A DNA stretch of 34,511 nt from Verrucomicrobiota bacterium. Lineage in GTDB: Bacteria; Verrucomicrobiota; Verrucomicrobiia; JABWAM01; JAHFSZ01. Of this stretch, positions 16,050-33,675 are shown one piece after another. The notes below the pieces were generated by a model that was not told the origin of the DNA, did not search any database, and worked only from the letters and a program-made list of their open reading frames with translations. How positions within the stretch are numbered: the stretch's first letter is position 1; each line of letters begins with the position of its first letter. Position numbers and translations under genes: made by a program. The DNA is taken from the NCBI GenBank assembly GCA_023265515.1, contig JAHFSZ010000024.1, positions 1 to 34,511 of the forward strand, given 5' to 3'.

Positions 16050-16298
16050 TCAGTCCTCATCCTGGCCCTTTTCGGCCCAGGGATCGACCTCCGCGGCTTC
16101 GTGACAGACGGCGGCCAAGCCGCAGGTGTCATAGGCATGGACGTATTTTTCCATGACCTGGCGGATCGCCTGGTGGACCGTCTTTATTTTCTCGGGATCA
16201 CCCGGCTTTCCCACAAGGCTCCGTACGGCGGCATCGGCCATTTCCTGGACAACATCGTCGAGTTTTTTATCGGTCAGCTGAATTTGAACGCGTTTCAT
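16050..16298 (-). CDS. Conserved-looking 82-aa protein coupled to resC, unknown
   Basis: The ORF starts MKRVQIQLTDKKLDDVV and overlaps the stop of the cytochrome maturation gene by four bases (ATGA), a strong sign that it is translated. It is helical and highly charged, without a signal peptide or membrane segment, and ends with an acidic tail (KGQDED). H54, C59, C65 and H66 (HAYDTC, then AAVCH) cluster and could bind a metal or form a redox pair. C-x5-CH is not a standard c-heme motif. I do not recognise the family. Its position as last gene of the heme/cytochrome maturation operon suggests an accessory role, but this is inference only. Confidence 0.65.
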   Translation of the reverse strand: MKRVQIQLTDKKLDDVVQEMADAAVRSLVGKPGDPEKIKTVHQAIRQVMEKYVHAYDTCGLAAVCHEAAEVDPWAEKGQDED

Positions 16299-17968: not shown

Positions 17969-19866
17969 GACTTTTCCCCCTCCCTGGGTGCCATATAAGG
18001 TTTGATGTAAAACATGGTGAAAATCCCTCCGCAAACCATCAGCGAACCGATCCACTTCAGCGACCAGCCGGGATCGCGCAGGACCTGCAGCGTGGTTTGG
18101 TTGAGATCGTTTGGATTCCAGGAAGCCTGGGAAAATTTATAGGAAGTGCCGAGGAGGCCCGCCCCGGGAAAATCCGGGAAATTGGCCGGATGATTCATCC
18201 AGATTTCGCGCTCCACCACGGTCTTGCTTCCGGGATCGACGAAACGCACCCGGCTTTTGAATCCCGCAGGGCTTTGAGTTCCCTCGTCGCGCTCCACCTC
18301 GAAGTCCTCCAGCGCCACCCCGAAACTCAGCGGATGAGACCTCTGCCCAAACGAGACATGCACACTTTCACCGCCCACACGCAGATGAACCGGCGATGCC
18401 ATGCCAATCCATTGCGTCACGCTTTCGCCGCCCTTCTCGACCCGGACTTGGATGCCGGCCATGCCGGCGGGCCGGAAGATCCCCTCCGAAAGCGGCGCCA
18501 GCTCCTCATGAACGACCGCGGCCGCGACCTGCTTGTCGATTTTTACTTTCCAATCAGCCCAGCCCGGCAAAAACTCCTGGCCGGGTTCGATATTGCCGCT
18601 TCTCGGCTCATGCCGTTGGGATGTCGCTTCGAACCGCAGCCGGCCTGCCGGATTCCGGAAAATCATCAGGCTGTTTTTTCCCGGCACGGAAGGCTGCTGT
18701 TGTTGTCCATGCCCATGGATCAGCATGCCGGCGTTTCCGCCAAGCGAGGCCGAAAGGCGTCCCGCCGTTTTGCCGGCAATTTCAAACATCAACGCCGGGT
18801 TGTTCGGCTCCTCGGAAACACTCATGGGCTCCTTGCCGCTCATCCGGAAATCCGCGAAATATTTCAGCACCTTCAGCGTCCACGGGGTTCCTTTCAACGG
18901 CGTGCTCTTGCCGAGAATCGGCGCTACCGGAAACTCAAACCGTTTTCCGTCCACTTCCAGTTCCAGCATTCCGTGGCTCTTCTGATGCGTTTGCGCTGAA
19001 CGGTCGAAGCGGTAGACGGCCTCAATGCCCGTGGGCTGGCCCTCGACGGAACGCGTGATTCCCATCTCAGGCATCTTTGCGAAGGCGAAGCGGAGCTCGC
19101 GGGCGGTTTGGAGGGGACCCGGCAAAGACCCGGGCCGCTCCGGTTTCGGCGACGCCGTCGGGGTGTCGGCCGCCAGCTGAATGACCGCCGGGCCGAGGTC
19201 CGCCCGGTTTCTCTCGGCATCGCCCAGCACCAGCCACTGCTCAATCGGCTTGGGAACCATTGCGCTCTGCATGACGACATGAAGCGCGGGCGATCCGTCC
19301 TCGCCGCCCTCTTCCACCACGGTTTTCGTCCCCAGCTCCTCGGCGGAGCCGAGCACCGAAACCTTGACGCCGTTCACGTCAAATGACAAGGGCTTCTCCG
19401 GCGAGGGAGCATGGACTTCGATGGGGAGCGCCTGGAACGAGCTTTCCTTCATTTCACTGGTGCGGATCTCCAGCAGTTTCTGACGCGTGACGATATAATT
19501 GAGCGGCTCTTCCCCCTTGAAAAGAGTCACATTGCCTTCCACACCCCAGATCCGGCCGATGATGGCGCCGATCAAAACCGTGACGATTCCCGCGTGCGTG
19601 ATGACAAAACCCGTCAGGTGCGGTTTCCAGGGGTAACGGACAAGGGCCGAACAGATCAGATTCATGCAAAGCAGAACCAGCCACGCAATGAACCACGACG
19701 AATCGTAAATGTACGCCTGGGCAACCGCCGCATCGAAACGCGACTCCACGATCGTGCCAACAATGCTGGCGCCTATCAGAATCGCCAGCAGGAGCATCGC
19801 CAGCTTGAGCGAGCCAAAGAATTCCAGAAAATGCTGCGCGACGGATGGCGGTTCAGGTTCAGTCAT
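17965..19866 (-). CDS. resB: Cytochrome c biogenesis protein ResB/Ccs1
   Basis: I start at the ATG at 19866 (MTEPEPPSVAQHFLEFF), preceded by GGGAAG at a suitable distance; the track start at 19896 adds 10 residues. The 633-aa protein begins with the ResB opening FLEFFGSLKLAMLLLAILI. Further membrane segments follow (WFIAWLVLLCMNLICSAL, GFVITHAGIVTVLIGAIIG), then a large periplasmic region of about 450 residues and a final helix near 605-625. ResB pairs with ResC in system II cytochrome c assembly. Its stop overlaps the resC start (ATGA). It follows hemH after 48 bases, so heme b synthesis and heme attachment are likely co-transcribed. Confidence 0.93.
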   Translation of the reverse strand: MTEPEPPSVAQHFLEFFGSLKLAMLLLAILIGASIVGTIVESRFDAAVAQAYIYDSSWFIAWLVLLCMNLICSALVRYPWKPHLTGFVITHAGIVTVLIGAIIGRIWGVEGNVTLFKGEEPLNYIVTRQKLLEIRTSEMKESSFQALPIEVHAPSPEKPLSFDVNGVKVSVLGSAEELGTKTVVEEGGEDGSPALHVVMQSAMVPKPIEQWLVLGDAERNRADLGPAVIQLAADTPTASPKPERPGSLPGPLQTARELRFAFAKMPEMGITRSVEGQPTGIEAVYRFDRSAQTHQKSHGMLELEVDGKRFEFPVAPILGKSTPLKGTPWTLKVLKYFADFRMSGKEPMSVSEEPNNPALMFEIAGKTAGRLSASLGGNAGMLIHGHGQQQQPSVPGKNSLMIFRNPAGRLRFEATSQRHEPRSGNIEPGQEFLPGWADWKVKIDKQVAAAVVHEELAPLSEGIFRPAGMAGIQVRVEKGGESVTQWIGMASPVHLRVGGESVHVSFGQRSHPLSFGVALEDFEVERDEGTQSPAGFKSRVRFVDPGSKTVVEREIWMNHPANFPDFPGAGLLGTSYKFSQASWNPNDLNQTTLQVLRDPGWSLKWIGSLMVCGGIFTMFYIKPYMAPREGEKS

Positions 19867-19914
19867 GGCTTCCCGTACTCTACCGGAACAGTTCATGGGT
19901 TGTCATGACTTGTT

Positions 19915-20970
19915 TCATGCAACGCCGGCGGCCGGATCGCAACGCGGGGCGGAAAACTCAAGACTGCGGGCGATCATCTTTTCCAGGGCGTCAATCCAGA
20001 GCGGGTGGTCATTCAAACAAGGAATGAGCCTGAATGCCTCCCCCCCCGCCTGAAGAAATGTTTCTTTTCCGCGCATTCCGATCTCTTCAAGGGTTTCCAA
20101 ACAGTCGGAAACGAAGGAGGGACAAAGGACGAGGAGTTTCTTGACGCCCTGTGACGGCAGACGCGCCAGCCGCTCCTCCGTGTACGGTGTTAACCACGGG
20201 TCCCTGCCCAGCCTTGACTGAAATGCGATGGAACACTTCCCCTCCGGCACACCGGTCCTTTGGATGAACGCCCTCACGGTCTTGAGGCACTGGGCGCGAT
20301 AACACGTCCGGTGGACCGGGCTTTCACCCGCGCAACAGTTCTCGACAGCGAGGCAATGGCCGCCGGTGGGATCCGATTTGCGCAAATGTCTTTCCGGCAG
20401 ACCATGAAAACTAAACAACAGATGGTCATAATCCTGGCTGAGCCCATCCGCGGCGCTCGCGGCCAGGGCTTCGATGTAATCGGGGTCGTCGTGGTAAGGA
20501 GGAACGATCCTCAACGAAGCCTGCGGCGCAAGAACAGCAAGGACCCGCTTCACATGCTCCACGGCCGTCTCGTAGCTTGACATGGCGTAGTGCGGAAACA
20601 TCGGGATCAGCAGAAGCTCATGAACGCCCTTTTTGAGCAAGCGAAGAACAGCTTCTTTCACGGAAGGACTTTGGTAACGCATCGCCAGCTCGACCGGAAT
20701 CGTCATCCGGCTTTGCAAGCGGCCCTTCACCCGCCTGCCGGTCACCACCAGGGGCGAACCGTCCCGCAGCCAGATCTTGCCGTAGGCTGCAGCGGAGTGC
20801 TTCACACGAAAGGGTAAAATGCAGCCATAAACCACCAGCATCCGGGCCAGGTACGGCATGTCCATGACGCGTTCATCCATCAGAAACTCCCCCAGGTACC
20901 TGGCCACATCGCGCCACGCGGGCGATTGGGGCGAACCCAGGTTGAGCAACAGAACTCCCTGTTTTTTCAT
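19915..20970 (-). CDS. hemH: Ferrochelatase
   Basis: The 351-aa enzyme inserts Fe(II) into protoporphyrin IX to make heme b. It opens GVLLLNLGSP, and the metal-site histidine is H189 (LFSFHGLPERHL). The conserved glutamate is E292 (FVSDCLETLEEI). A cysteine-rich insertion follows the histidine (C206, C212, C213, C223, C228), a pattern seen in ferrochelatases thought or known to carry a [2Fe-2S] cluster; cluster binding here is inference. Its ATG overlaps the hemG stop by four bases, making it the fourth gene of the hem block. No membrane segment is evident. Confidence 0.97.
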   Translation of the reverse strand: MKKQGVLLLNLGSPQSPAWRDVARYLGEFLMDERVMDMPYLARMLVVYGCILPFRVKHSAAAYGKIWLRDGSPLVVTGRRVKGRLQSRMTIPVELAMRYQSPSVKEAVLRLLKKGVHELLLIPMFPHYAMSSYETAVEHVKRVLAVLAPQASLRIVPPYHDDPDYIEALAASAADGLSQDYDHLLFSFHGLPERHLRKSDPTGGHCLAVENCCAGESPVHRTCYRAQCLKTVRAFIQRTGVPEGKCSIAFQSRLGRDPWLTPYTEERLARLPSQGVKKLLVLCPSFVSDCLETLEEIGMRGKETFLQAGGEAFRLIPCLNDHPLWIDALEKMIARSLEFSAPRCDPAAGVA

Positions 20971-22400
20971 CCGGCCGTCTCCACCGCGAATTCGGCGGAT
21001 TCCCGCTCGACTTCATGAAACCAACCGGAAGCCAGGAACTTTTCAATTTTTTCGGCTGCGCCATCGCCCGAAACGATGGAATCCCCCAGGGAAATCCCGT
21101 CGCGGTAATGGCCCGCGAAAAAAAGTCCGGGCACACGGGCCTCCGCTTCATTCATCCATTTTTGGAAACGCCCGTAGCCGACCTCGTATTGCGGAATTGC
21201 CCTGGGAAACCGCTGGTGGTGACCAAAGACCGGCTCGCCGGCCACTCCCAAAATGGAGCGAAGGTCATTGCAAACCAAGGCCTTCAACGTCTCGGCGTCG
21301 AGCAGCGCCAGGTGAGGGGCGCGGACGCCGCCCACATAGCTGGTCAGCGTTACATGGCCGGCCGGAGCGCGGTTCGGGAACAGCGAGGATGAAAAAATCG
21401 TCCCGAGAATCTTATGGCCTTCCCGTTGAGGAATCAGCATGCCGTAACCGCTGAGCGGGTGCGCGACCTGGTCGCGTCGAAAACCCAGGACAACGCTTGC
21501 CACGGGCGGATGATGGATCCGCGCCAGCGGGGCAAGGCTCAGGCTGCCGCAAGCCTGAAGCTGGAGACGCGCGAGCTTGTGGGCGGGCAGGGCGAGCAGG
21601 ACGGCGCTGTGTTGGCGGGTCTCTTCACGGCCTTCCATGCGGAGTGAGACCTCCCAACCGCTGGGCAAACGCCGGAGACAACCCACGGGCGAACAAAGCC
21701 GCACCGCACCCGCCAGACGCGCCTCCAACGCGTCGATGAGCACCTGCAATCCTTCATCAAATGAAAACTTTTTTGCGTCTTTCTTGGAGACTTCTCCGCG
21801 CCGCTTCCGTTGTCGGGCGCCAAAAATCTGGCCCAAAATGAGCGAACCATATTTTTGTTCCGCGGCGTGAAGCTTGGGAAACGCATATTGGACGGAAAGG
21901 CGGGCGGGATCCCCTGCGTAAATTCCGGCCGCCAGTGGGTTGACGGCGTAGTCAAGAAATTCCCGGCCCATGCGGCGTATGACAAACTCCGCCAGGTTTT
22001 CCTCGCAGCCGTCCGCGGCGCGCCGAATAAATGGCTCGGCGAGCAAACGCAGCTTCGCCGAGGCGGAGAAAAGCGGTGTGGTCAGAAACGCCAGGGCGGA
22101 TCCCGGCACCGCGACAGGCTTTCCGCGGCGGACAATGTAACGGTTCCCCGCATCCGGGTTCGAATAGATGCGGCGTTCTCCAAGCCCCAGGTCTTGAATG
22201 AGCGCGGCAATTCTCGGCGAAGTTTCCAGGATGGTGTTGGGGCCGAACTCGGCAAGGTACCCCCCGGACCGGATGGTTTGAATCACCCCGCCTACGCGGG
22301 CGCCCGCCTCGTAAAGCGTCACGGGAATATCCCGTTGGCGAAGGCGAAACGCCGCCGTGAGCCCGGTGATCCCGCCGCCGATGATTGCCACGCTTTTCAT
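20967..22400 (-). CDS. hemG: Protoporphyrinogen oxidase, FAD-dependent (HemY/HemG type)
   Basis: The 477-aa flavoprotein starts with the FAD loop VAIIGGGITGLTAAF and the following GARVGGVIQT. The C-terminal FAD block is FFAGHYRDGISLGDSI. This is the HemY-type oxidase that removes six electrons from protoporphyrinogen IX, normally using O2 (some members make coproporphyrin III instead). PLAAGIYAGDPARLSV is another family block. It overlaps hemN upstream and hemH downstream by four bases each. Because protoporphyrinogen oxidase and ferrochelatase follow HemN, the classical protoporphyrin route is the simplest reading. The gene name varies between species (hemG or hemY); the unrelated E. coli flavodoxin-like HemG is not meant. 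Confidence 0.94.
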   Translation of the reverse strand: MKSVAIIGGGITGLTAAFRLRQRDIPVTLYEAGARVGGVIQTIRSGGYLAEFGPNTILETSPRIAALIQDLGLGERRIYSNPDAGNRYIVRRGKPVAVPGSALAFLTTPLFSASAKLRLLAEPFIRRAADGCEENLAEFVIRRMGREFLDYAVNPLAAGIYAGDPARLSVQYAFPKLHAAEQKYGSLILGQIFGARQRKRRGEVSKKDAKKFSFDEGLQVLIDALEARLAGAVRLCSPVGCLRRLPSGWEVSLRMEGREETRQHSAVLLALPAHKLARLQLQACGSLSLAPLARIHHPPVASVVLGFRRDQVAHPLSGYGMLIPQREGHKILGTIFSSSLFPNRAPAGHVTLTSYVGGVRAPHLALLDAETLKALVCNDLRSILGVAGEPVFGHHQRFPRAIPQYEVGYGRFQKWMNEAEARVPGLFFAGHYRDGISLGDSIVSGDGAAEKIEKFLASGWFHEVERESAEFAVETAG

Positions 22401-23770
22401 ATCGTCTTTGAATACCGTCCTTCCCTTGCCGCAGGCAGGTAAGCGTCGAACCGCATCGCGATGTTCCGGATGAGCAGCCGCCCCAGATCCGTGACTTCAA
22501 GCCCTCCCGAGGTTCGGGTGACCAGGCCGTCGGCCTCAAGATCGGCCAGCGAGGCGAGCTCCGATGCGAAGTGGCTTTTGAAATCCACGTTCAGCGAGCG
22601 CGACATCTCCGCGAAATCCAGGCTCAAGTCGCACATGAGCCTCATGATCGTCTGGCGGCGCAGCTTGTCCTCTTCCGTCAAAAAATACGCTTTCGCGACC
22701 GGTTGACTCCGCTGGTCGAGCATCGAATAGTAGGCGGGCAGCTCCTTATGGTTCTGCCAATAAATGCCGTCTGCCTGCGAAATGGCGGACATGCCGAAGG
22801 CGTGGAGGTCCGCTCCCCCGCACGTGCTGTAGCCCTGGAAATTCCGCTGCAGCGTTTTTTGCCGCTGCGCCAGCGCCATCTCGTCATTTTCGCGGACAAA
22901 ATGATCCATGCCGATATAGACGTAACCCTGCGAAGTGAGTTTCTCGATCGTGAGCTTTAAGAGCTGGAGCTTGATCGCCGGTGCGGGCAGCATTTCCTCG
23001 CGCAATCTTTTCTGCGCCGGTTTGAGCCATGGCACGTGCGCATAATTGAAAACCGCCAGGCGGTCGGGTGAAAGCTTGAGTACCTCTTCGAGAGTCCGCT
23101 CGAAGGACTCCACCGTTTGGAACGGCAAGCCGTACATCAGATCGATGTTGAGCGATTCAAACCCGGCTTCCCGCAGCCAGTGGACGGCCCGCTCGGTGGT
23201 TTGCCGCGACTGAAGCCTGTGCACGGCCCGCTGGACGTCCTCGTCGTAATCCTGGACGCCCACGGAAGCCCGGTTGAAGCCGGCATCCCTCAGGGCCGAT
23301 ACGTGATCGTGGGTCAACCGGCGCGGATCGATCTCGACCGAAGCCTCCACGTCGTCGGCGACCGTGAAATGCGAGCGAATCAATTCTCCCAGCGCGCCAA
23401 TTTCCCCCGGCAACAGAAACGTCGGAGTTCCTCCTCCCAGGTGGATCTGAACGACCTTGCGGCCCGGTTTCAGGAGCGCAGTGGTCAGCTCCAGCTCCCT
23501 TGCCAGATAGTCGAGATAGACCGCGCTCCGGTCCTGCCGGGTCGTGATGACGGTCGTGCAGCCGCAATACCAGCAAAGCGACCGGCAAAACGGCAGATGA
23601 AAATAGAGCGACAGATCGCGATTGGAAGCGCCGCATTCCCGGATTTTCTCGCGCAGCGCCTCCCCCGGGACCTGGTTGGTGAAATGGGTGGCGGGCGGAT
23701 ACGAGGTATATCTCGGTCCCGGGACGTTGTACTTCTCCACCAGCCGAAGGTCGACGTTGAGCCGGCTCAT
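22397..23770 (-). CDS. hemN: Oxygen-independent coproporphyrinogen III oxidase
   Basis: The 457-aa radical SAM enzyme decarboxylates coproporphyrinogen III to protoporphyrinogen IX without oxygen. The cluster-binding motif is C62xxxC66xxC69 followed by C71 (CRSLCWYCGC), as in E. coli HemN. Other HemN blocks include YNVPGPRYTSYP, HLGGGTPTFL, GVQDYDEDVQRAV and MDHFVRENDEMALAQ. The C-terminal IRNIAMRFDAYL supports true HemN rather than the heme chaperone HemW. It is coupled to hemE upstream and hemG downstream by four-base overlaps. An anaerobic enzyme followed by a typically aerobic-type oxidase is notable. Confidence 0.96.
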   Translation of the reverse strand: MSRLNVDLRLVEKYNVPGPRYTSYPPATHFTNQVPGEALREKIRECGASNRDLSLYFHLPFCRSLCWYCGCTTVITTRQDRSAVYLDYLARELELTTALLKPGRKVVQIHLGGGTPTFLLPGEIGALGELIRSHFTVADDVEASVEIDPRRLTHDHVSALRDAGFNRASVGVQDYDEDVQRAVHRLQSRQTTERAVHWLREAGFESLNIDLMYGLPFQTVESFERTLEEVLKLSPDRLAVFNYAHVPWLKPAQKRLREEMLPAPAIKLQLLKLTIEKLTSQGYVYIGMDHFVRENDEMALAQRQKTLQRNFQGYSTCGGADLHAFGMSAISQADGIYWQNHKELPAYYSMLDQRSQPVAKAYFLTEEDKLRRQTIMRLMCDLSLDFAEMSRSLNVDFKSHFASELASLADLEADGLVTRTSGGLEVTDLGRLLIRNIAMRFDAYLPAAREGRYSKTI

Positions 23771-24885
23771 AGAAAACTGCGGACCGTGGCCACCAGGCTC
23801 TGGATGTTCTCGAGTTTGGCGCTTGGCGGTACTCCGTGCCCAAGATTAAAAATATGCCCGTCCTGCCCTCGCATCTCTTCGAGGATGCGGCGCACCTGCG
23901 CTTCGACAACTTCGGGAGTGGTATTCAACAGCGCCGGATCGAGGTTGCCCTGAAGGGCGATCGGCGGGGGCAAGCGCGCCCGTATGTCCGCCAGCCGGAC
24001 CGTCCAGTCAACGCTCAGAACGTGTGCTCCCGTCTTGGCCAGGGCCTCCCAATTTCCATTCGTTCCTTTCGAAAAAACAATGACAGGCACGCGGTCTTTG
24101 GCCGACGAAACGACGCGGGTCATCCAGTGACCGGAAGCCTCATCGAAGACATTATGGGCCAGGTTGCCCCCAAGACTGTCGAAAATCTGGACCGCATCAA
24201 CGCCCGCATCGATCTGCATCCGCAGGAACTCCGTCACTGCCGATGTCAGTTTTTCCATAAGCCGAATAAATAAACGGCGGTCGGAATAAAACAAGGTCTT
24301 GGCCGCCGTGAACTCACGGGCGCTGCCGCCTTCCAACATGAAGTTCGCCAGGGTCCATGGCGAGCCGGCGAAGCCAAGCAGAGCCGTGCGACCCCCAAGA
24401 GCTTTTTGGATCATGGGGATGGTCTGGGCCACATACTGCAGCCGCTCGATCATGCCATCGACATTCAGGCGCTCAATGTCGCGGCCCGATCGCAGGACGA
24501 ACTTCATCTGCACCCCTCCTCCATCTCGAAAAGAAAAGGGTTGTCCCAGCGCTTCGGACACCACCAGGATGTCGCTGAAAACAATGGCGGCATCAAAATC
24601 AAAACGGCGGATTGGCTGCAAAGTCACCTCAGCCGCCAGCTCCGGCGTCTGGATGAGCTTGAGAAAGGAATGCTTCTCCTTCAGCGCGCGGTATTCAGGC
24701 AGACAGCGCCCCGCCTGACGCATCAACCATACGGGAGGATGGTCGATCGGAAGGCAATGGCACGCATTGAGAAAGCGTTGCCGGTTGCTCAACGCCGTTC
24801 CGCGCCATCGGCCAAGTCCGCCGCTGGGTTCGTCCCGGAGACGACACCCCTGGCTTGAATGAAGAGTGGTCGCATTCATATTCAT
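23767..24885 (-). CDS. hemE: Uroporphyrinogen decarboxylase
   Basis: HemE decarboxylates uroporphyrinogen III to coproporphyrinogen III and commits the pathway to heme. The signature VWLMRQAGRCLPEYR is present, with Cys in place of the usual Tyr after RQAGR. Other blocks are FDFDAAIVFSDILV, GFAGSPWTLANFML and LQGNLDPALL. Using the ATG at 24885 gives 372 aa, about 20-30 residues more than usual. A TTG at 24792 (SNRQRFLNAC), with GGA six bases upstream, would give 341 aa and may be the real start; the track start at 24933 looks too long. It is the first gene of the hem-res operon and overlaps hemN by four bases. Confidence 0.95.
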   Translation of the reverse strand: MNMNATTLHSSQGCRLRDEPSGGLGRWRGTALSNRQRFLNACHCLPIDHPPVWLMRQAGRCLPEYRALKEKHSFLKLIQTPELAAEVTLQPIRRFDFDAAIVFSDILVVSEALGQPFSFRDGGGVQMKFVLRSGRDIERLNVDGMIERLQYVAQTIPMIQKALGGRTALLGFAGSPWTLANFMLEGGSAREFTAAKTLFYSDRRLFIRLMEKLTSAVTEFLRMQIDAGVDAVQIFDSLGGNLAHNVFDEASGHWMTRVVSSAKDRVPVIVFSKGTNGNWEALAKTGAHVLSVDWTVRLADIRARLPPPIALQGNLDPALLNTTPEVVEAQVRRILEEMRGQDGHIFNLGHGVPPSAKLENIQSLVATVRSFL

Positions 24886-25096
24886 GGCTTGAATTGGCTT
24901 GAATCGCGTGATCCGTCTGCGGGAGCATCCCATTTCCAGGTTCCGGCAGCTTTGCGTGGATTGACCATTGATCCCCTTTTTTTGGCCTAATAGAAAGCAA
25001 ATCAGCCGGATCCCCGAGGGCCCGTCATGTTGAAAAACGCCGGTGTCAGCCCGTTTTTACAGGATCCACGAGCGCATGACTGTCACCGGCCGGCAA
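24886..25096. other. Intergenic region between hemE and the heptaheme cytochrome gene
   Basis: About 210 bases separate the chosen hemE start from the end of the upstream cytochrome gene. It contains the hairpin described separately (25033-25090) and an A/T-richer stretch around 24970-25005 that may hold a hemE promoter. I could not find a convincing -35/-10 pair. Part of it could be coding if hemE starts at 24933. Confidence 0.5.
25033..25090 (-). terminator. Candidate terminator after the cytochrome cluster
   Basis: On the minus strand GCCGGTGACAG (25090-25080) can pair with CTGACACCGGC (25049-25039), an 11-bp stem with one mismatch, and is followed by GTTTTT. The loop is about 30 bases, longer than usual, so efficiency is uncertain. 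It begins 7 bases beyond the cytochrome stop and lies before hemE, dividing the two blocks. Confidence 0.45.
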
Positions 25097-26578
25097 TCAT
25101 TGATTGGCGCCCGTATGGCAGTCGTTGCATTTCATGTCACCGATCTCGCCACCCGGATGGTGAAAGGGATGGCCTTGTGCACTGAGATTTTCGAGCTCTT
25201 TGCCGTTTCCTTGGGCAAGAATGATATGGCAGGTGTTGCAATCGCTGGCTTTGATCATTCGCTTGCTGTCCGCCGTCTGATGCTCCCCATCATGGCAGCG
25301 AAAACAACCAAGCCAGTCCTTGTGGCCGATGTTGTTGGGATAAACTTTCCAGCTGGATTTCATTTCAGGAAAAAAGTTTTGCACGTAGATGCGCTGAATC
25401 TCATCAACGGCCGCGTCCAGGCCCTGCTGACCCGGATACCTGGATTTCAGTGTTGCGGCAATCGTCTGCCGGGCATCGGTCTCGCTGACATACGGCTTGG
25501 TCAACACGTCCACCGCTTCCTTCTTAATGAAGGGCATCGAGGGATCCAAACGCGCCACCGCGAGCGCTTGATCAATCGCCTCGTTGGGGCTCTGGAAGTG
25601 GTGCGTTGGGCGATTGTGGCAATCCATGCAATCCATGGTGCGAATGGCATGCTTTTTCGGGTCGTATTTGAAACTGCCGGTCGAGTACACAACCTGCTCG
25701 CCGTTGGACTTCGTCATGCGTACCCACGGAATAACCTGGCGGCGCTCATCGGCGGCGATGTATTCGACTTTGTTGGCGATATTCATATGCCAGTGAATTC
25801 CGCCCACAGGACCATGAGTTGGATCACCGCCCCCCACCTTGAGAAGAAGCCGGACCGAGTAGGGTGTGTTGGTCTTGTCGCTCAGAAAATGGGAGTAAGT
25901 GCGATCCAGGTTTCCGACAAATTTTTTTGGCCAGTGGCATTGCTCGCAGGTTTCCTGCGCCGGCCGGAGATTTTTGATCGGCGTCTGGATTGGCCTGGGA
26001 AACTTGTGAAAGATCGTGGCATAGACCTGATACGTGCCGCTGATTTTGGATTTTACGTACCAGGAGGCTCCAGGACCGATGTGGCACTCCGAACAAGCAA
26101 CCCGGGCATGCGGGGAATGCAGGTACGTTGTGAACTCGGGCTGCATGACGGTGTGGCATGATTGTCCGCAAAATGTCGTGGATTCGGTAAAATGATAGCT
26201 TTGGTAACTTCCGACCGCCGTGATCAGGAGAAAGAACCCGCTTGCACCGATAAAAAAGGCCAGGTTGCGGCGGTCTCGCGGATGCGACAAATCCACCATG
26301 AGCCGGGGAATGGCCCACCCTGGCTTATGTTTGGCGAGCTGACGTTGTTCCAGGACCAGACCCAGGAGGATCAAGAACACTCCGATTACCGTGAAAGTCG
26401 GCGCCACCAAATAGGCCAGGATGCCCATGTAGGGATTTCCCGTCGGCCTGAACAGGTCCATGGTGAAGAGGAAAAGAAACGCGAAGAAACTGCCGCCGAC
26501 AACCACCAGCCCGGCGAGACTGAACCAGTTGCGAAAAATCGAAAGCTTCGGCCGGGAAGATTTGTGCTCCTCACTCAC
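25097..26578 (-). CDS. NapC/NirT-like membrane multiheme cytochrome c (seven heme motifs)
   Basis: The 493-aa protein starts at GTG. It has three hydrophobic segments (about 18-42, 50-76, 104-126) and then a periplasmic region with heme motifs at C137 (C-x3-CH, CGQSCH), C162, C211, C317, C425, C447 and C484, the last six being CxxCH. The block PHARVACSECHIGPGASWYV and ETCEQCHWP are typical of NapC/NirT-family proteins found in metal-reducing bacteria. NapC relatives take electrons from membrane quinol and pass them to periplasmic cytochromes. Three membrane helices and seven hemes exceed the classical one-helix tetraheme form. It follows cytochrome b after 135 bases and may have its own promoter. 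Confidence 0.9.
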   Translation of the reverse strand: MSEEHKSSRPKLSIFRNWFSLAGLVVVGGSFFAFLFLFTMDLFRPTGNPYMGILAYLVAPTFTVIGVFLILLGLVLEQRQLAKHKPGWAIPRLMVDLSHPRDRRNLAFFIGASGFFLLITAVGSYQSYHFTESTTFCGQSCHTVMQPEFTTYLHSPHARVACSECHIGPGASWYVKSKISGTYQVYATIFHKFPRPIQTPIKNLRPAQETCEQCHWPKKFVGNLDRTYSHFLSDKTNTPYSVRLLLKVGGGDPTHGPVGGIHWHMNIANKVEYIAADERRQVIPWVRMTKSNGEQVVYSTGSFKYDPKKHAIRTMDCMDCHNRPTHHFQSPNEAIDQALAVARLDPSMPFIKKEAVDVLTKPYVSETDARQTIAATLKSRYPGQQGLDAAVDEIQRIYVQNFFPEMKSSWKVYPNNIGHKDWLGCFRCHDGEHQTADSKRMIKASDCNTCHIILAQGNGKELENLSAQGHPFHHPGGEIGDMKCNDCHTGANQ

Positions 26579-26713: not shown

Positions 26714-27856
26714 CTACTTCTTGCCCGGTTCGATCCGATGCGGCACGGCGTAGGCGTCGAAGTCATAGGTGCGCCCCGAGAAGGTGATTTCCCGCTCCGA
26801 GAAGTAGCCCAACGCGCCAAAGATCAGCGCCAGCGCCAGGGCGAACACACCAATGGCGACCGCGATGGGCCGTTTTCTCGGATTCCTTTCAGGACTGCGG
26901 TCCAGAAAAGGCCATAGCACAAGCAGAAGCCCGGGAATCAGCGACACGAAAAGACCCAATGTTTTTGGGAAAAACTTCAAAAGCTGGTACGTCGACAAAA
27001 AATACCACTCCGGCTTGATGCCTTTCGGGGTTTTGAGCGGATCAGCCTTCTCCCCCAACTCAACGGGCCAAAGCACGATCAGGGTGACAAGCATTGCCAG
27101 CATGAGGCAGAAAATGACCCCCTCCTTGACGATGTGGTTCGGGAAAAAGGGAATTCCGCGCGACTTATCGATGGGTTTTTCCTCACCCACGCGCTCCATC
27201 GTGGCCAGCCCCTGCACTCGCATGAGGAACAAATGCACCGCGATCAGCCCGGTCAACACCCAGGGCAGGACCACGACATGCATGACGTAAAACCGGGAAA
27301 GCGTTTCACCAGTCACCCCATCACCGCCGCGAAGCAAGGTCATGAAGTACTGGCCCACCCAGGGGATCACGCCCGTAATCTCCGTCCCCACGGTTGTGGC
27401 CCAGTAGGAAAGCTGGTTCCAGGGGAGCAGATAACCGGTGAATCCAAAGGTCACGGTACAGCCGAGACTCAGCACCCCCAACACCCACGTGAGCTCGCGC
27501 GGTTTCTTGTAGGCGCCCATGAAGTAGGTGCGGCACATGTGCACGAGCACGCAAAGGATCATCATGGTGGAGCCCCAGGCATGCAGGCCGCGGATCAGCC
27601 ATCCGAAATGCGCCTTGGTGATGATGAATCGGATGCTCTCAAAGGCCGTGTCGGTGGTCGGCCGGTAATAGATCATCAGGAGGATGCCGGTGACCACCTG
27701 GTTGACGAACAGATAGGCCGACAGGGTGCCGAACGTATGCCAAAACCCGACGTGGGGAGGCAGGGGCTTGTGAGCCTGCTCATCGACGAATTCTTCGACC
27801 AGGCCGATGTCGTAACGCCTCGCCAGCCACGACCTGATGGTGTGAACAATCTTCAC
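26714..27856 (-). CDS. Cytochrome b of a Rieske/cytochrome b complex
   Basis: The 380-aa protein has about eight membrane helices. Heme-b ligand pairs are H92/H106 (13 residues between) and H193/H208 (14 between, the cytochrome b6-like spacing). KPEWYFLSTYQLLKFFP at about 281-297 carries the quinol-site PEWY motif of subunit IV / the cytochrome b C-terminal half, so the two halves are fused as in bc1. A short soluble tail follows the last helix. It oxidises quinol and passes electrons to the Rieske protein and to low-potential hemes. It overlaps the Rieske gene by four bases. No cytochrome c1 or f gene is adjacent; the nine-heme protein upstream probably takes that place. Confidence 0.95.
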   Translation of the reverse strand: MKIVHTIRSWLARRYDIGLVEEFVDEQAHKPLPPHVGFWHTFGTLSAYLFVNQVVTGILLMIYYRPTTDTAFESIRFIITKAHFGWLIRGLHAWGSTMMILCVLVHMCRTYFMGAYKKPRELTWVLGVLSLGCTVTFGFTGYLLPWNQLSYWATTVGTEITGVIPWVGQYFMTLLRGGDGVTGETLSRFYVMHVVVLPWVLTGLIAVHLFLMRVQGLATMERVGEEKPIDKSRGIPFFPNHIVKEGVIFCLMLAMLVTLIVLWPVELGEKADPLKTPKGIKPEWYFLSTYQLLKFFPKTLGLFVSLIPGLLLVLWPFLDRSPERNPRKRPIAVAIGVFALALALIFGALGYFSEREITFSGRTYDFDAYAVPHRIEPGKK

Positions 27857-28338
27857 GCCGACCTCACCATCACCTCGCCTCCGACAACCGTGACTCCCAT
27901 TTCAGCGAGTGGCCGCGGCGGCGGCCCCGATACCACGCGGCCCTGCGCGTCAAAAACCCCCGCATGGCACGGGCAGGCGATTTGCCGCTGTTGCGGATCC
28001 CAGCGCACGATGCATCCGAGGTGGGTGCAGATGGCCGAGAAGGCGCGGAAACCCTGCGGAGTTTTGAAAACCAGGACCGGCTGGGCATTGACTGCAACAA
28101 CTTTTCCCTCCCATTCTGAATAGTCATCCGCCTTGCCGGCGGACACGGTCTGCGAGCCGGGCCCCCGGCGCCGGGCGGGCCACGCGTAGCTGAGCACGGG
28201 AGCAATGAATCCGATGACGCACGCCGCCAGCCCTCCAGTCAGCAGCCAATCGAGGAATGTCCGGCGGGTGACACCATTATTTTTGCACGGCGTCGGTTCG
28301 CCGGCCGGATTTGGGATGATGGGTGATTGGTCGCTCAC
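27853..28338 (-). CDS. Rieske [2Fe-2S] protein
   Basis: The best start is the GTG at 28338, whose GTGA overlaps the stop of the nine-heme gene; the track start at 28437 lies within that gene. The 161-aa protein has a Tat-like signal (TRRTFLDW, R25/R26) and one membrane anchor. The cluster ligands are C104/H106 (CTHLGC) and C122/H125 (CPCHAG), with C109 and C124 placed for the usual disulfide. It accepts an electron from quinol at cytochrome b on the periplasmic side. Its stop overlaps the cytochrome b start by four bases, so all three genes are translationally coupled. Confidence 0.95.
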   Translation of the reverse strand: MSDQSPIIPNPAGEPTPCKNNGVTRRTFLDWLLTGGLAACVIGFIAPVLSYAWPARRRGPGSQTVSAGKADDYSEWEGKVVAVNAQPVLVFKTPQGFRAFSAICTHLGCIVRWDPQQRQIACPCHAGVFDAQGRVVSGPPPRPLAEMGVTVVGGEVMVRSA

Positions 28339-29579
28339 GGCCGCCTTCTCCTCGCAAGTTGCCGCCATTTGAGCCAGAACAGGCCCGCCATGACGATGAA
28401 AAAGAGCCAGATGGGAATGAGCGCGAGGCGCTTCCACCGCTCAACGCGTTCCAGTGTCGCGACACCTGACACCGTCTGGCCGATGATTTCAGCCGAGTGA
28501 GCGGCCACGGGTTGCAGGAACTCCGGCGAGAGCGTGTGCTGGAGCACCTCGAGCTGGGTGACCTGGGTCCTGGCCTCGCCCAGCAGGAGCTGTTCCTCTT
28601 CCGTGGCCAAACCCCTTAATTCCGCCTGACGCACGCGTGCGTCAGCCTGTTCGAAGTCTCTGTTTGCATCGCCCACAATTTTTGCCACCGCGTCGCGAAC
28701 GGCAATCGGCTTGGTTCCGTCCGTATGGCAGCGTGTGCAGCTCTGATCAAACAGGTTGATGGAAGCCTTTTGAATGGCGTGATTGCCGTGGCAACTGATG
28801 CACTCATGGAATCTCGGCGTGGCGCCGGCCCGCTTGAGATCCTCATTCAAGAGGCCTGCATGCGGGCTCTTTTCAAAAAGTTCCGCCTGCCGTCCATGGC
28901 ATTTGCCGCAGACCTGGCCGACCTCCCTGGTACCCGGCGGCGTTGCGCCATGATTGCCATGACATGTGACGCAGGTCGGCGCGCTCAGATCGCCCTTCTC
29001 AAGAAGAAGGTGGGCATGGTAGCTCGATTTATATTTTTCCAAAACGTCCGAGGGAAGGTTGTAACCAGCCATCAGCTTGGCATCGGCGTGGCAGCGACCG
29101 CAGGTTTGCGGGACATTGCCCGGAAATGTGCGGGCCTGCGGCGACTTGGCTTTGAGGATGTCGTGCGAGCCATGGCAGTCGGCGCAGGCGGCCACCTTCT
29201 GGTCGCCATGCTGCAACAACTGCTCACCATGCTTGCTGGTTTTATAGCGCTCCAGCTGATCGGCCTGAAGCCCGTAGGGGTTCATCATCCGCACGTCGCT
29301 GTGGCAGCTGGCACACTTCGCGACAATGTCGCGCTTGTCTGAGAGGGGCTTGAAGTCCTTGGCGGCATGCGCCGTCTCGTAGTCGTCGCTTGCCGGATTT
29401 CCGCCATGGCACTGCGTGCAAGTGAGTCCCGTGTGGACACTGCCCGCCAGCGCCTTCTTCTGATCCTCATGGCACTCCAGGCATAAATTTTCTTCCGCCC
29501 GGGCCGCCGCTCGAAACACCAGCAAGCTCAATAGAATCGCAGCCCACCCGAGCTTTTGCGGTAATCGCAACTGGCGCAT
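28335..29579 (-). CDS. Nine-heme tail-anchored c-type cytochrome
   Basis: The 414-aa protein has a signal peptide (GWAAILLSLLVFRAAARA) and nine CxxCH motifs at C33, C54, C89, C132, C160, C203, C224, C260 and C281. A helical heme-free stretch follows (about 290-375), then a C-terminal membrane helix near 388-405 and an RRRR tail. It should hang on the periplasmic side of the inner membrane. Its stop overlaps the Rieske GTG (GTGA), and cytochrome b follows, so it probably acts as the electron outlet of that complex in place of cytochrome c1. Motif spacing is irregular and resembles the broad cytochrome c3/c7-like multiheme class; I cannot name a precise family. Confidence 0.9.
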   Translation of the reverse strand: MRQLRLPQKLGWAAILLSLLVFRAAARAEENLCLECHEDQKKALAGSVHTGLTCTQCHGGNPASDDYETAHAAKDFKPLSDKRDIVAKCASCHSDVRMMNPYGLQADQLERYKTSKHGEQLLQHGDQKVAACADCHGSHDILKAKSPQARTFPGNVPQTCGRCHADAKLMAGYNLPSDVLEKYKSSYHAHLLLEKGDLSAPTCVTCHGNHGATPPGTREVGQVCGKCHGRQAELFEKSPHAGLLNEDLKRAGATPRFHECISCHGNHAIQKASINLFDQSCTRCHTDGTKPIAVRDAVAKIVGDANRDFEQADARVRQAELRGLATEEEQLLLGEARTQVTQLEVLQHTLSPEFLQPVAAHSAEIIGQTVSGVATLERVERWKRLALIPIWLFFIVMAGLFWLKWRQLARRRRP

Positions 29580-29603: not shown

Positions 29604-29939
29604 CTATTTCTTGAACGAACGAATGTAGGCGATCAACTGCTTGATTTCCTCGTCGGTCAGCTTGTCGCCAAAGCCCTTCATCTTCGTTTTGTCGCCGTCC
29701 TTGACGCCTTCTTTGATGGCCTTGATCATTTGTTCATCCTTCATTTCGGCCTGGCCCTTGGCGTCGGTAAAATCCTTGGCTTTCAACTTTTTTCCGGCGG
29801 GAGTTTCACCCTTTCCATCCTTGCCATGGCACGAGGCACAAGACTTTTCAAAGAGTTCCTTGGCATCCGCGGCAAAGAGCAACGGAGCTCCGGCAACAAG
29901 TGTCGCAATCAAAGCCACCCACGCGATTTTTTTATTCAT
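29604..29939 (-). CDS. Monoheme c-type cytochrome, copy 1
   Basis: The 111-aa protein has a signal peptide (WVALIATLVAGAPLLFA) and a single heme site, SCASCHGKDGKG. The probable axial methionine is in KMKGFGDKL, and the end is the usual class I fold helix (LTDEEIKQLIAYIRSF). AAAGGA lies eight bases before the ATG. It is a soluble periplasmic electron carrier. The C-terminal third is identical in protein and nearly identical in DNA to the neighbouring paralogue, while the signal peptides differ. It lies between the second copy and the nine-heme gene and may shuttle electrons between the Rieske/b complex and the outer-membrane conduit. Confidence 0.93.
   Translation of the reverse strand: MNKKIAWVALIATLVAGAPLLFAADAKELFEKSCASCHGKDGKGETPAGKKLKAKDFTDAKGQAEMKDEQMIKAIKEGVKDGDKTKMKGFGDKLTDEEIKQLIAYIRSFKK
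29623..29729. repeat. 107-bp duplicated tract, copy A
   Basis: This tract matches 30040-30146 at 106 of 107 positions (the difference is C at 29682 against T at 30099). It covers the C-terminal part of the first monoheme cytochrome gene. DNA immediately upstream in the genes is clearly more diverged, so the identity boundary is sharp. Confidence 0.9.
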
Positions 29940-30020: not shown

Positions 30021-30353
30021 TTATTTTTTAAAACTGCGGATGTAGGCGATCAACTGCTTGATTTCCTCGTCGGTCAGCTTGTCGCCAAAGCCCTTCATTT
30101 TCGTTTTGTCGCCGTCCTTGACGCCTTCTTTGATGGCCTTGATCATATCGGCGTCCTTCAGGTCCGCCTGTACCTTGGCGTCCGTGTAATCCTTGACCTT
30201 GAGCTTCTTTCCGGCCGGAGTGTCGCCCTTGCCATCCTTGCCGTGGCACGCGGCGCAGGTCTTGTCATAGACCGCCTTGGCATCTTCAGCCTTCACGGAC
30301 GCCGCCGTCAGCGCCACGGTAGCGGCAATGATGATCGTGATGATCGTTTTCAT
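30021..30353 (-). CDS. Monoheme c-type cytochrome, copy 2
   Basis: I start at the ATG at 30353 (MKTIITIIIAATVAL), preceded by a strong GGAGGAAG ribosome binding site; the track start at 30401 adds 16 residues. The 110-aa protein has a signal peptide ending near SVKAED, one heme motif (CAACHGKDGKG) and the probable methionine ligand in KMKGFGDKL. It is a paralogue of the next gene downstream. It follows the outer-membrane beta-barrel gene after 44 bases and should be a soluble periplasmic carrier. Two such carriers side by side suggest dosage or slightly different partners. Confidence 0.94.
   Translation of the reverse strand: MKTIITIIIAATVALTAASVKAEDAKAVYDKTCAACHGKDGKGDTPAGKKLKVKDYTDAKVQADLKDADMIKAIKEGVKDGDKTKMKGFGDKLTDEEIKQLIAYIRSFKK
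30040..30146. repeat. 107-bp duplicated tract, copy B
   Basis: Partner of 29623-29729 in direct orientation, 417 bases apart, with one mismatch. It encodes the same C-terminal residues in the second cytochrome gene. Such a repeat could recombine and delete one cytochrome copy. Confidence 0.9.
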
Positions 30354-30397
30354 CGAACTTCCTCCTTGAATGGGATGGTTGCAGGTTAGACCCTGTC

Positions 30398-32806
30398 TCA
30401 AAACGCGACCTCGATGCTGGAATAAGCCAGGTGCGCGTCAAAATTATTGTTGCCTCCCGATGTGGAATCGATGCTTTTGAGGAAGCTGTATTTGACATTC
30501 CACCGGATGTTCTCCGCCATGCGCCACAACAAGCCCACGCCAACAGAGTGCTCCTCCGCGCCTGCGCCATAGGGCATGGTGGTGCTGGACTGGTCCAGGT
30601 AATCGTAAGCGCGATAAAACGAATATTGGGCCGTGACATCCGTCTTCTCGGTCAGCGCGTACCCGGTCAGAAAGCTTGCGTACCAATAGCTGTTCTGTGA
30701 ATCCCAGACCTGGTTGATGGCCGCGCCCGTGCGCTCATCGGCCTGCGTGTCTGTTTCGCTATAGACCCAATTCACGTTGCCCTGCATGTAAAGGCGCGCC
30801 ATCGGGGTCACGGTGATGTTCTGGCTCAAAACGTGCGTCCGCGTGTCGCCGCTTTGCACCGTCTCCAGACTGCCCACGCCGTTCTCCCGCTGGTTGAGCT
30901 GGAAATCGTACCGGCTCACCAGGGTGACTTTCGAGCAGGGATGCGAGGTCACCCGGAAATTCACGTCATGCGTCAACTGCCCCTGGGAGGTGATATACAT
31001 GGGATAACGGTTCCCGCTCGTGGAGGAGTTGATCGTTGAATCCCTCGAAAAACTGTAATCCGTCTCGCGCAACCTGAAGTAGTACTGGACGGCCGTGTTC
31101 ACCTCCTTCATCGGATACCAGTTCGAACCGAGCGTGTATTTCTGCATGAACCGTTCGATATCCGTATCCCAAAAGATCGTCTGAACACCGGTGTCCACAG
31201 TGGTTTGGGTTCCAATCCAATCCCCTTTGCCTTCCTCCCAGTCCGCCCGGGCATAAAACAGCCAGTCGTTCACCCCATTGTAGCGAACCTCCATCTTCTG
31301 AGCCACGTTCAACCTCTCTTCGTCATCAAGTATATTGGTTCGTGCGAGCGTGGGAACCGGCCCCGCCGCGATGTTCGATGCCTGGAAGGTGGAAATACCA
31401 TCGATTTGTCGGTCGTCGATCCGAAGCGCCAGCACCAGGCTGACATCTTCCCAAGGCATGGTGATATAGTTCAAGTTTGCCACATGCTGGTTGATCTTTG
31501 AACCCCCCGCCAGGTTAATGAAGCCGGTGTCGCCTGCCTGTGCGTTGGGATAGAGAACGAAGGGGGCATCAAATCCCGCGCCGTAAATGCGGCTGCCCCC
31601 GATGTCGCTGTCCATGGTCGTGAAGGCGTAGGCCGTGGTGAACATCGTACCCTCGCCGAAGTCCGTCTCCTGAAACCCATGCACGCTGAAATTGTCCGTG
31701 TTGACGACCTCGCGATGGGTAATATCGCGATCCAGCCCCGGTTCGTCCGGCCGTTGTCGCATGTAGAGCCCGTTATCCTGGTCGGTTAATTCATAACGCA
31801 CCCCCACTCCAAAGGCGGTGTCCTCCACCTTGTGTTTCATGTCCAGGCTGAAAATATCCCGCTTTTCGTCGATCCGCCAGAAAGAGGGCACAATGCGTTT
31901 CGCGCCAAACCCTCCTGTCAGGTTGGAATCGCCCCAGCCGGTGGAATCTTTTCTGCCGTCCCTGGAATTCCTCTCGTACCTGAAGATAAACTCGGGAAGA
32001 TCCGGCAGGGTAAGTCCCGATTCAAACCAGATGTTCGCGCGGTCGATGGCGAAGACCTGGTCATTATAAAGATCGATCCACTGGCCGTTTTTCGGAAAGA
32101 AGCCGCCCGTGTTGTCGTACCAGATGCGGTACTCCCGATAGCCGGCGTTGACGTAGCCAACATCGTCCCGGCGCACATCGAGCTTCAACAGGTAGTCATG
32201 GTTGTCGAACAGCCCCCGCCCATCGATTTTCAGGGTTGTGTCTTTGGCAATCGAGCCTTCCGTATGGAAATCCTGGACTCCGCCGGAAAGATCGGTGCTG
32301 ACCTCTTTGCGCGCCCTGAACGCGGACTTGTCGCCGGAGACAAAAGCCCCGGTGCCAGACAACGTGATCCAATTGTTCTTTTCGGAAGATTCTCCGGAAG
32401 ATTCTTTCGGCTTTTCCTCAGCCTTCTCCGGGAGTTTGGCGGCAGTTTGCTCCTGCCCAACCACCTGCGGTGACGCCGCCTTTTCCTTTTTGGGCTCGTC
32501 TTTTTTCGCGGGCGCCGCGTCTTTCTTTTCAGCGCCGGACTGGGCCGGCAGAGGCGCGGGTTCCAGATCCCCCTTTTTGGCGGGGGCTTTCTTTTTTGTC
32601 TTCGCAGCGTCGTATTTTGCGGCCAGAGGCTTCGTTGTCTCGTCGCTTTTTCCGGCAGCAGCCGGATCAGGCCCCCGGCTTGACTTGACCTCGTTGGCGG
32701 GAGCGTTTTTGTAGGTCTGGGTCTTGGAGGTCATGGCAGACGCATGAAGCGGTGTCCCGGCCATCAGCGAGAAAAGAAGCGACCAGCAGGCAACCCGAAA
32801 ACTCAT
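30398..32806 (-). CDS. Outer-membrane beta-barrel protein, MtrB/PioB-like
   Basis: I prefer the ATG at 32806 (MSFRVACWSLLFSLM), with AGGA six bases upstream, over the track start at 32842. The 802-aa protein has a signal peptide (about 1-24) and then a K/A/P/E-rich linker of about 120 residues (KKKAPAKKGDLEP, KKDEPKKEKAAS). A long barrel follows of alternating aromatic strands (DYLLKLDVRRDDVGYVNAGYREYRIWYDN and similar), ending in phenylalanine (SSIEVAF), the outer-membrane signature. The barrel resembles the decaheme-associated MtrB/PioB class, which sheathes a multiheme cytochrome to carry electrons through the outer membrane. The octaheme gene directly upstream supports this. MtrB-like identity is inferred from fold pattern and context; a different porin is possible. 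Confidence 0.82.
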   Translation of the reverse strand: MSFRVACWSLLFSLMAGTPLHASAMTSKTQTYKNAPANEVKSSRGPDPAAAGKSDETTKPLAAKYDAAKTKKKAPAKKGDLEPAPLPAQSGAEKKDAAPAKKDEPKKEKAASPQVVGQEQTAAKLPEKAEEKPKESSGESSEKNNWITLSGTGAFVSGDKSAFRARKEVSTDLSGGVQDFHTEGSIAKDTTLKIDGRGLFDNHDYLLKLDVRRDDVGYVNAGYREYRIWYDNTGGFFPKNGQWIDLYNDQVFAIDRANIWFESGLTLPDLPEFIFRYERNSRDGRKDSTGWGDSNLTGGFGAKRIVPSFWRIDEKRDIFSLDMKHKVEDTAFGVGVRYELTDQDNGLYMRQRPDEPGLDRDITHREVVNTDNFSVHGFQETDFGEGTMFTTAYAFTTMDSDIGGSRIYGAGFDAPFVLYPNAQAGDTGFINLAGGSKINQHVANLNYITMPWEDVSLVLALRIDDRQIDGISTFQASNIAAGPVPTLARTNILDDEERLNVAQKMEVRYNGVNDWLFYARADWEEGKGDWIGTQTTVDTGVQTIFWDTDIERFMQKYTLGSNWYPMKEVNTAVQYYFRLRETDYSFSRDSTINSSTSGNRYPMYITSQGQLTHDVNFRVTSHPCSKVTLVSRYDFQLNQRENGVGSLETVQSGDTRTHVLSQNITVTPMARLYMQGNVNWVYSETDTQADERTGAAINQVWDSQNSYWYASFLTGYALTEKTDVTAQYSFYRAYDYLDQSSTTMPYGAGAEEHSVGVGLLWRMAENIRWNVKYSFLKSIDSTSGGNNNFDAHLAYSSIEVAF

Positions 32807-32865
32807 CGACGATCCTGCACCCTGCCTGGTCATGGTCTTCATGGTTGTTGGCCCGCTTTGTTGTT

Positions 32866-33675
32866 CTAAAATCTCAACGAGGTGTTGACCTGCGACCCAT
32901 GGACTGCTTCATGGCATCCCGCGCCCCAGCAGGTGCCGGCGTTCAAGCGTCCGGAGTGGTTCGATCCCCCGATCAGAATCTGCCCATAAGCGGTTTGCTG
33001 CTGGAAGTGGCACTTCAAGCAGAGATTCGCGTTGCGTTCTATCAGCATCTTCTGGTTCACCGAACCATGAGGCGCATGGCACGAAGTGCACCCTTCGCGG
33101 ATCGCCTCATGCGGGAAAACAAAGGGCCCTTTCTGCATGGTGTGGCATTGAAAACAGGTTTCCTCGGATGCAGTCGTCGAAGTCCCCCCGCCCTTGATGA
33201 TGTCGCCCTTGTGAGGGTTATGGCAGTCGCCGCAACTCACCTTACCGCTCAGAACTGGATGGGTGTGCGGCAAATTGAATTCGCCTCGCTTGTCGAGGTG
33301 GCATTGAAAGCATGTTTCAGGCGACTTGCGCGGATTGATGATGGTTCCTCGTTTGCCACCGGACTCGACATGCAAACTCCCTGGACCATGGCACGACTCG
33401 CAACCCGCGTTTGCGGCATTCTCCCCCTTCGCCATGAGGCGGGCATGCGAAGCTGTTTTGAAATCCTTCGCGATCTCATCATGACACGTGGCGCAGGATT
33501 CAGCACCCACGAAGGTTGCGCCGGGAATCTGCGGCGGCGCCATTACCGTGCGGTCAACCGTGACGCACGAGATGGCGATGACTACGATCGTTAGAAAGGA
33601 TAGTAGAACGGACAAACGCCTGCGCCGCCGGCCCAGCGATTCGCGCGATGGATGATTCGGTGGAGAAACATTCAT
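32866..33675 (-). CDS. Octaheme c-type cytochrome, MtrA/OmaB/DmsE-like
   Basis: The 269-aa protein has an arginine-rich N-terminus, a hydrophobic signal region (LSVLLSFLTIVVIAIS) and C37, which could be a lipobox cysteine, though the -3 residue is atypical. Seven CxxCH motifs lie at C61, C92, C122, C148, C174, C196 and C219; an eighth site, C249-x4-C254H255 (CWGAGCHEAVHG), is the longer spacing known from cytochrome c3. The heme count equals that of Geobacter OmaB-type conduit cytochromes, and the order cytochrome then barrel (23-base spacer) fits porin-cytochrome clusters. It should sit inside the beta-barrel and wire periplasm to cell surface. It is the first gene of the cluster. Confidence 0.88.
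   Translation of the reverse strand: MNVSPPNHPSRESLGRRRRRLSVLLSFLTIVVIAISCVTVDRTVMAPPQIPGATFVGAESCATCHDEIAKDFKTASHARLMAKGENAANAGCESCHGPGSLHVESGGKRGTIINPRKSPETCFQCHLDKRGEFNLPHTHPVLSGKVSCGDCHNPHKGDIIKGGGTSTTASEETCFQCHTMQKGPFVFPHEAIREGCTSCHAPHGSVNQKMLIERNANLCLKCHFQQQTAYGQILIGGSNHSGRLNAGTCWGAGCHEAVHGSQVNTSLRF

Follow-up and report, generated by a model that had tools for sequence, protein, structure and literature searches.

Gene clusters in which a porin lies beside a periplasmic cytochrome with eight heme sites were described in Verrucomicrobia by He et al. in 2017, an extracellular multiheme cytochrome (MHC) being found in only some of them (PMC5615132). He et al. reported no homology to the Shewanella or Geobacter systems; their text leaves the inner-membrane partners unnamed, and the taxa include Opitutus sp. 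GAS368 and Opitutus terrae PB90-1. The OmbB-OmaB-OmcB conduit of Geobacter also joins an octaheme periplasmic cytochrome to a barrel, has the surface cytochrome OmcB and is reported to lack sequence similarity to MtrCAB (PMC6148476). The Geobacter extHIJKL cluster is without an outer-membrane cytochrome, and a strain left with extHIJKL only could still grow, reaching ~52% of the wild-type level with Fe(III) oxide and 76% with Mn(IV) oxide (PMC6148476). The Mto cluster of Sideroxydans is thought to work inward (PMC13390432). On the quinone side, ImcH takes electrons from menaquinol when the acceptor lies above about -0.1 V, and quinol oxidation is the only role in which it has been implicated so far (PMC6295460, PMC12307469).

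The stretch of DNA analysed here (the window) spans an entire contig of 34,511 nucleotides from a Verrucomicrobiota metagenome-assembled genome (the bin), which is 88.5% complete. It contains an octaheme cytochrome beside a porin of at least 20 strands, and this verrucomicrobial pair fits the porin-multiheme family of He et al., the two being matched by description through their features and taxa; one of the loci recovered here (L075) is from a record bearing the same species name, Opitutus sp. GAS368. In contrast to that report, the window octaheme is clearly related to MtrA, its barrel has a predicted MtrB fold and candidate inner-membrane partners can be named. Verrucomicrobial conduits appear in this comparison as relatives of MtrAB and not as unrelated structures, and the locus provides testable inner-membrane partners for the porin-cytochrome clusters of this phylum. 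The preferred reading, to which we give a probability of about 0.6, is a trans-outer-membrane conduit encoded with its own quinone-side machinery and with net electron flow outward. This figure and the likelihoods given below in words to the inward, reversible and missing-partner readings need not add up to one, the missing-partner reading being compatible with any direction. Verrucomicrobia are frequent in humic lakes, peat and soil, and extracellular electron transfer in such places would shift carbon from methane to CO2.

The octaheme cytochrome and the outer-membrane barrel

The pair occupies positions 30398-33675, and these limits, already given in the original prediction, are exact ORF boundaries. 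The octaheme c-type cytochrome (32866..33675, minus strand) comprises 269 aa with 7 CXXCH motifs and a terminal CX4CH, in the order CATCH, CESCH, CFQCH, CGDCH, CFQCH, CTSCH, CLKCH and CWGAGCH, and its N terminus carries a lipobox-like IAISC. It matched chain A of PDB 6r2q with E=1.5e-29, and homology to MtrA across the heme domain places it in the MtrA/DmsE superfamily. The entry 6r2q is the Mtr complex, and we take its chain A to be MtrA; the molecule name of this chain in the PDB, 'Cystathionine beta-synthase', is apparently an annotation error. Hemes 1-2 align with MtrA 1-2 and hemes 3-8 align best with MtrA 5-10, so by this alignment the protein is one heme pair shorter than MtrA and the missing pair lies around MtrA 3-4. 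Likewise, the TIGR03508 profile covers residues 1-58 and 113-257 and leaves the intervening stretch unmatched. The best NCBIfam model was decahem_GSU2203 (4e-50, below its curated cut-off), and the protein falls outside the DmsE decaheme family TIGR03508 (3.6e-46), with 157.7 bits against a cut-off of 192.2 and eight hemes where ten are required. MtoA is a decaheme, unlike the window cytochrome, and so is the GSU2203 (OmcK) model of the Geobacter GSU2203/GSU2204 pair.

The eight heme motifs and eight further histidines are invariant in an alignment of 21 octaheme homologs, which would be enough for bis-histidine ligation of each heme. The last motif is of the CX4CH type in 65 of the 66 family members. 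The lipobox-like motif ahead of heme 1 was identified in 61 of the 66 family members versus 11 of 36 distant relatives, mostly decahemes. The AF2 model of the octaheme was of poor quality.

The barrel (30398..32842, minus strand) comprises 814 aa. Its AlphaFold model, built on a 29-sequence alignment, has 26 long strands from residue 158, mostly of high confidence (mean pLDDT 77.7), preceded by a disordered lysine/alanine-rich stretch (residues 1-152). With this model as query, the top Foldseek match in the PDB was MtrB (6r2q_B, E=7.1e-16, TM 0.66 by target), TonB receptors ranking behind it with TM <=0.48 among the matches listed; an outer-membrane barrel of MtrB-like fold is thus predicted. 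The sequence is not recognisably that of MtrB: no match to Pfam or NCBIfam was obtained at E<=0.001, and membership of MtrB or PioB families is not supported at that level. Against GSU2204, weak matches were found for 5 of the 29 family barrels (best 1.7e-4) and none for the window barrel. The pair thus resembles Shewanella MtrAB(C) (6r2q) in combining an MtrA-homologous multiheme protein with a 26-strand barrel, and differs in its eight hemes instead of ten, its lipobox, its terminal CX4CH and the absence of MtrC. It resembles OmbB-OmaB-OmcB in its octaheme and barrel and shares neither the surface cytochrome nor the lack of similarity to MtrCAB reported for that system.

The octaheme and barrel ORFs are 23 bp apart on the same strand. 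A barrel lies directly downstream of the octaheme in 60 of the 62 testable loci, so the pairing is not due to chance, and the porin-cytochrome module first proposed for these genes is borne out by the MtrA homology and the MtrB fold. A single-sequence search with the barrel gave no match in the named genomes, where the loci were recovered with the octaheme alignment; barrel relatives were identified in 27 of the 93 genomes searched, a count that includes the genome of the window. The named loci belong mostly to Verrucomicrobiota (Opitutae, Pedosphaera, Limisphaera and Didemnitutus), the remainder being a few Omnitrophota and one record labelled Scalindua. Tandem duplications of the pair were observed in three loci (L068, L061 and L084). 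The barrels of a sister clade (L089, L090, L094, L096, L099, L102 and L103) contain an N-terminal monohaem domain (CXRCHG...MPP) that resembles planctomycete-type cytochrome c, as if a periplasmic monohaem carrier had been fused to the barrel.

The surface cytochrome in the family and in the bin

No surface multiheme cytochrome was identified in the window, as originally noted, and the window is the complete contig. Upstream of the octaheme only 836 bp remain before the contig end, and the DNA just outside the window therefore cannot be read directly; the upstream interval contains a small membrane-type ORF and a TPR-like fragment. The original prediction had also proposed a search elsewhere in the genome. 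Screening of the bin (88.5% complete) with a profile of the capping nonaheme, with paired-CXXCH domains and with close CXXCH pairs gave no match off this contig; these screens pass over multihemes with wide spacing, such as an eight-heme protein of 1139 aa on contig C87. A three-part conduit of the Mtr or Omb kind is therefore not supported by the window or by the bin as screened.

Among relatives, a large nonaheme lies directly upstream of the octaheme in 14 of the 53 testable loci (those with at least 2.5 kb of upstream DNA) and is missing in the other 39, which makes the two-part form the usual one in this family. In a quick tree of 66 octahemes, with moderate support, the capped forms make up two groups with nonahemes of different size, only two changes separate the two-part and three-part states, and the window octaheme is grouped with two-part relatives. 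With so few changes, absence of the cap is a trait of the lineage and a poor guide to the direction of electrons.

The pair might instead serve a surface cytochrome or enzyme encoded in the absent part of the genome, a reading that fits either direction and that the incomplete bin, the nearby contig end and the adjacent nonaheme of the 14 capped loci would allow. It is considered unlikely, as the nonaheme of relatives lies immediately upstream of the octaheme, a place taken in the window by unrelated ORFs, the closest relatives with enough upstream DNA are without it, and none was found elsewhere in the bin.

Quinone-side genes

The genes overlooked by the original prediction follow the conduit on the same (minus) strand, from 30401 to 25097. 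The first two encode monohaem cytochromes c: a periplasmic one (30021..30401; PF00034 2e-15, CAACH, signal-peptide-like N terminus), whose true start is probably the ATG near 30353, and a second one (29604..29939; PF00034 4e-15, CASCH). They are followed by a nonaheme cytochrome (28335..29579) with nine CXXCH motifs, a signal peptide and a C-terminal TM helix (385-403) ending in RRRRP, which is predicted to be periplasmic and anchored in the inner membrane. This protein was considered as the missing surface cytochrome and rejected, since a C-terminal TM helix followed by arginines points to the inner membrane. Its homologs include CbcL/MtoC-like proteins that have 11-13 hemes and several TM helices, and in other loci such proteins replace the nonaheme/Rieske/b part.

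The next gene encodes a Rieske iron-sulfur protein (27853..28437; PF00355 1e-13) with intact ligand boxes CTHLGC and CPCH; as the first 100 nt of the ORF overlap the nonaheme ORF, its true start is probably internal. Its likely partner is a cytochrome b in which b6 and subunit IV are fused (26714..27856; PF00033 2e-55, PF00032 1e-15), with candidate heme histidine pairs 92/106 and 193/208. Alternative complex III was considered as a competing quinol oxidase and rejected, no NrfD match having been found.

The last gene of this part encodes an ImcH-type inner-membrane quinol dehydrogenase (25097..26578) of 493 aa. It contains three N-terminal TM helices, a CX3CH adjoining the third one and six CX2CH motifs, which is the architecture described for ImcH, a protein of about 500 aa (PMC6295460). 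A single homolog from a Geobacter MAG shares this architecture and 40.5% identity over the full length (E=2e-134). An ImcH-type protein was identified within the octaheme locus in about 20 loci, the window included, the loci being cut at 10-20 kb. One of them, from an Omnitrophota groundwater MAG (L100), comprises, in this order, the octaheme, the barrel, ResB/CcsA-like ORFs, the nonaheme, the Rieske protein, the cytochrome b and ImcH. This repeated presence of an ImcH-type gene in the locus of an MtrAB-type pair contrasts with a 2018 survey, in which no mtrAB or mtoAB adjoined imcH (PMC6295460). Such an arrangement appears to be unreported in the open-access literature searched, that survey included, and is offered as a lead.

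Direction of electron flow, heme supply and oxidase genes

From the gene order, the homology, the barrel fold and the heme and TM architecture of this locus, we infer the complex, the placement of its cofactors, its direction and its acceptor as follows. The barrel would lie in the outer membrane and sheathe the octaheme, for which an N-terminal lipid is the probable membrane anchor; by analogy with the position of the last heme in MtrA, the heme of the C-terminal CX4CH would face outward. The monohaem cytochromes would carry electrons across the periplasm, fed by two inner-membrane entries, ImcH and a Rieske-cytochrome b complex in which the anchored nonaheme would replace the usual cytochrome c1. 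Electrons would most likely run from menaquinol to an external acceptor of fairly high potential that can be reached without a surface cytochrome. Candidate acceptors are humic or other soluble quinones, chelated Fe(III) and Mn oxides, used alongside aerobic respiration. Against this reading, delivery by a Rieske complex at high potential leaves fewer possible acceptors, and the complex could run in reverse. A self-contained, energy-conserving route of this kind, coupled to a Q cycle and recurring in Verrucomicrobiota and Omnitrophota, with an MtrAB-type conduit genetically coupled to ImcH and to a Rieske/b complex whose c1 is replaced by the nonaheme, is possible but doubtful.

Outward flow is favoured, at the probability of about 0.6 given above, because the adjacent ImcH-type protein points to quinol oxidation and because neither RuBisCO (the sole carbon-fixation route searched) nor a PF00124-type photosynthetic reaction centre was identified in the bin. 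The inner-membrane parts suggest this direction and do not prove it. The carbon-fixation and photosynthesis genes had been proposed earlier as a check on a donor role, and the result is negative; support for an MtoAB or PioAB function from host autotrophy or phototrophy is absent as far as these two markers go. The original prediction had further taken the two-part architecture as a hint of inward flow and had left the direction open. The hint is weakened by extHIJKL, a precedent for reduction through a conduit without a surface cytochrome, and by the lineage-wide absence of the cap. The openness stands formally, since the Mto cluster likewise combines two monohemes with a protein of the NapC family. 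Cytochrome b-Rieske complexes, which can work in both directions, are neutral in this respect. The tally of ImcH-type genes in two-part and three-part loci, with its small numbers and its loci cut at 10-20 kb, was set aside as evidence for direction. Direction is not readable from sequence, and MtrCAB has been made to work oxidatively in laboratory experiments (PMC8805035); both points weigh against the outward reading.

An uptake of the Mto/Pio kind, where an external donor such as Fe(II) would reduce the octaheme, the monohemes would lead to cytochrome oxidase and ImcH or the Rieske/b complex would reduce quinone in reverse, is rather unlikely. It agrees with the two-part architecture and with the same kinds of parts in the Mto cluster (mtoA, mtoB, mtoD, imoA and a second monohaem gene; PMC13390432), which like the window groups a conduit with two monohemes and a NapC-family protein and has no surface cytochrome; Fe(II) oxidation with O2 is also feasible, as COX1/2/3 are present in the bin. 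In the Mto cluster ImoA is a tetraheme and not ImcH, and no Rieske protein or cytochrome b is listed. Against the inward reading, ImcH is implicated so far only in quinol oxidation, the bin is without RuBisCO or a PF00124 reaction centre, and the octaheme family has three-part relatives. A reversible hub, whose direction would be set by redox conditions (humics taking electrons in anoxia, reduced humics giving them back with O2), is quite unlikely. Consistent with it are the presence of both conduit and oxidase in the bin, the two quinone-side entries and the either-way use discussed for related systems (PMC8805035, PMC6295460).

Genes for heme supply continue the strand of the conduit genes (16295-24933). 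Heme biosynthesis is represented at 19915..24933 (minus strand) by hemE, an oxygen-independent hemN, an amine-oxidase-family FAD oxidoreductase (HemY-like) and the ferrochelatase hemH, and cytochrome c maturation at 16295..19896 (minus strand) by ResB-like and CcsA-like proteins (PF05140, PF01578). hemE/hemN also lie near the barrel in L047, and the ResB/CcsA-like ORFs of L100 are inside its cluster.

A second cytochrome b was identified on bin contig C87 beside the COX1/2/3 genes of a cytochrome oxidase, so the Rieske/b pair of the window need not be the aerobic one. Between this cytochrome b and the COX genes lies the 1139-aa protein (L149:14561-17980), which contains 8 CXXCH motifs, an N-terminal TM helix and LysM and cytochrome c domains. 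Its helix and location point to a cytochrome of the inner membrane, which is probably an unusual c subunit of an oxidase supercomplex.
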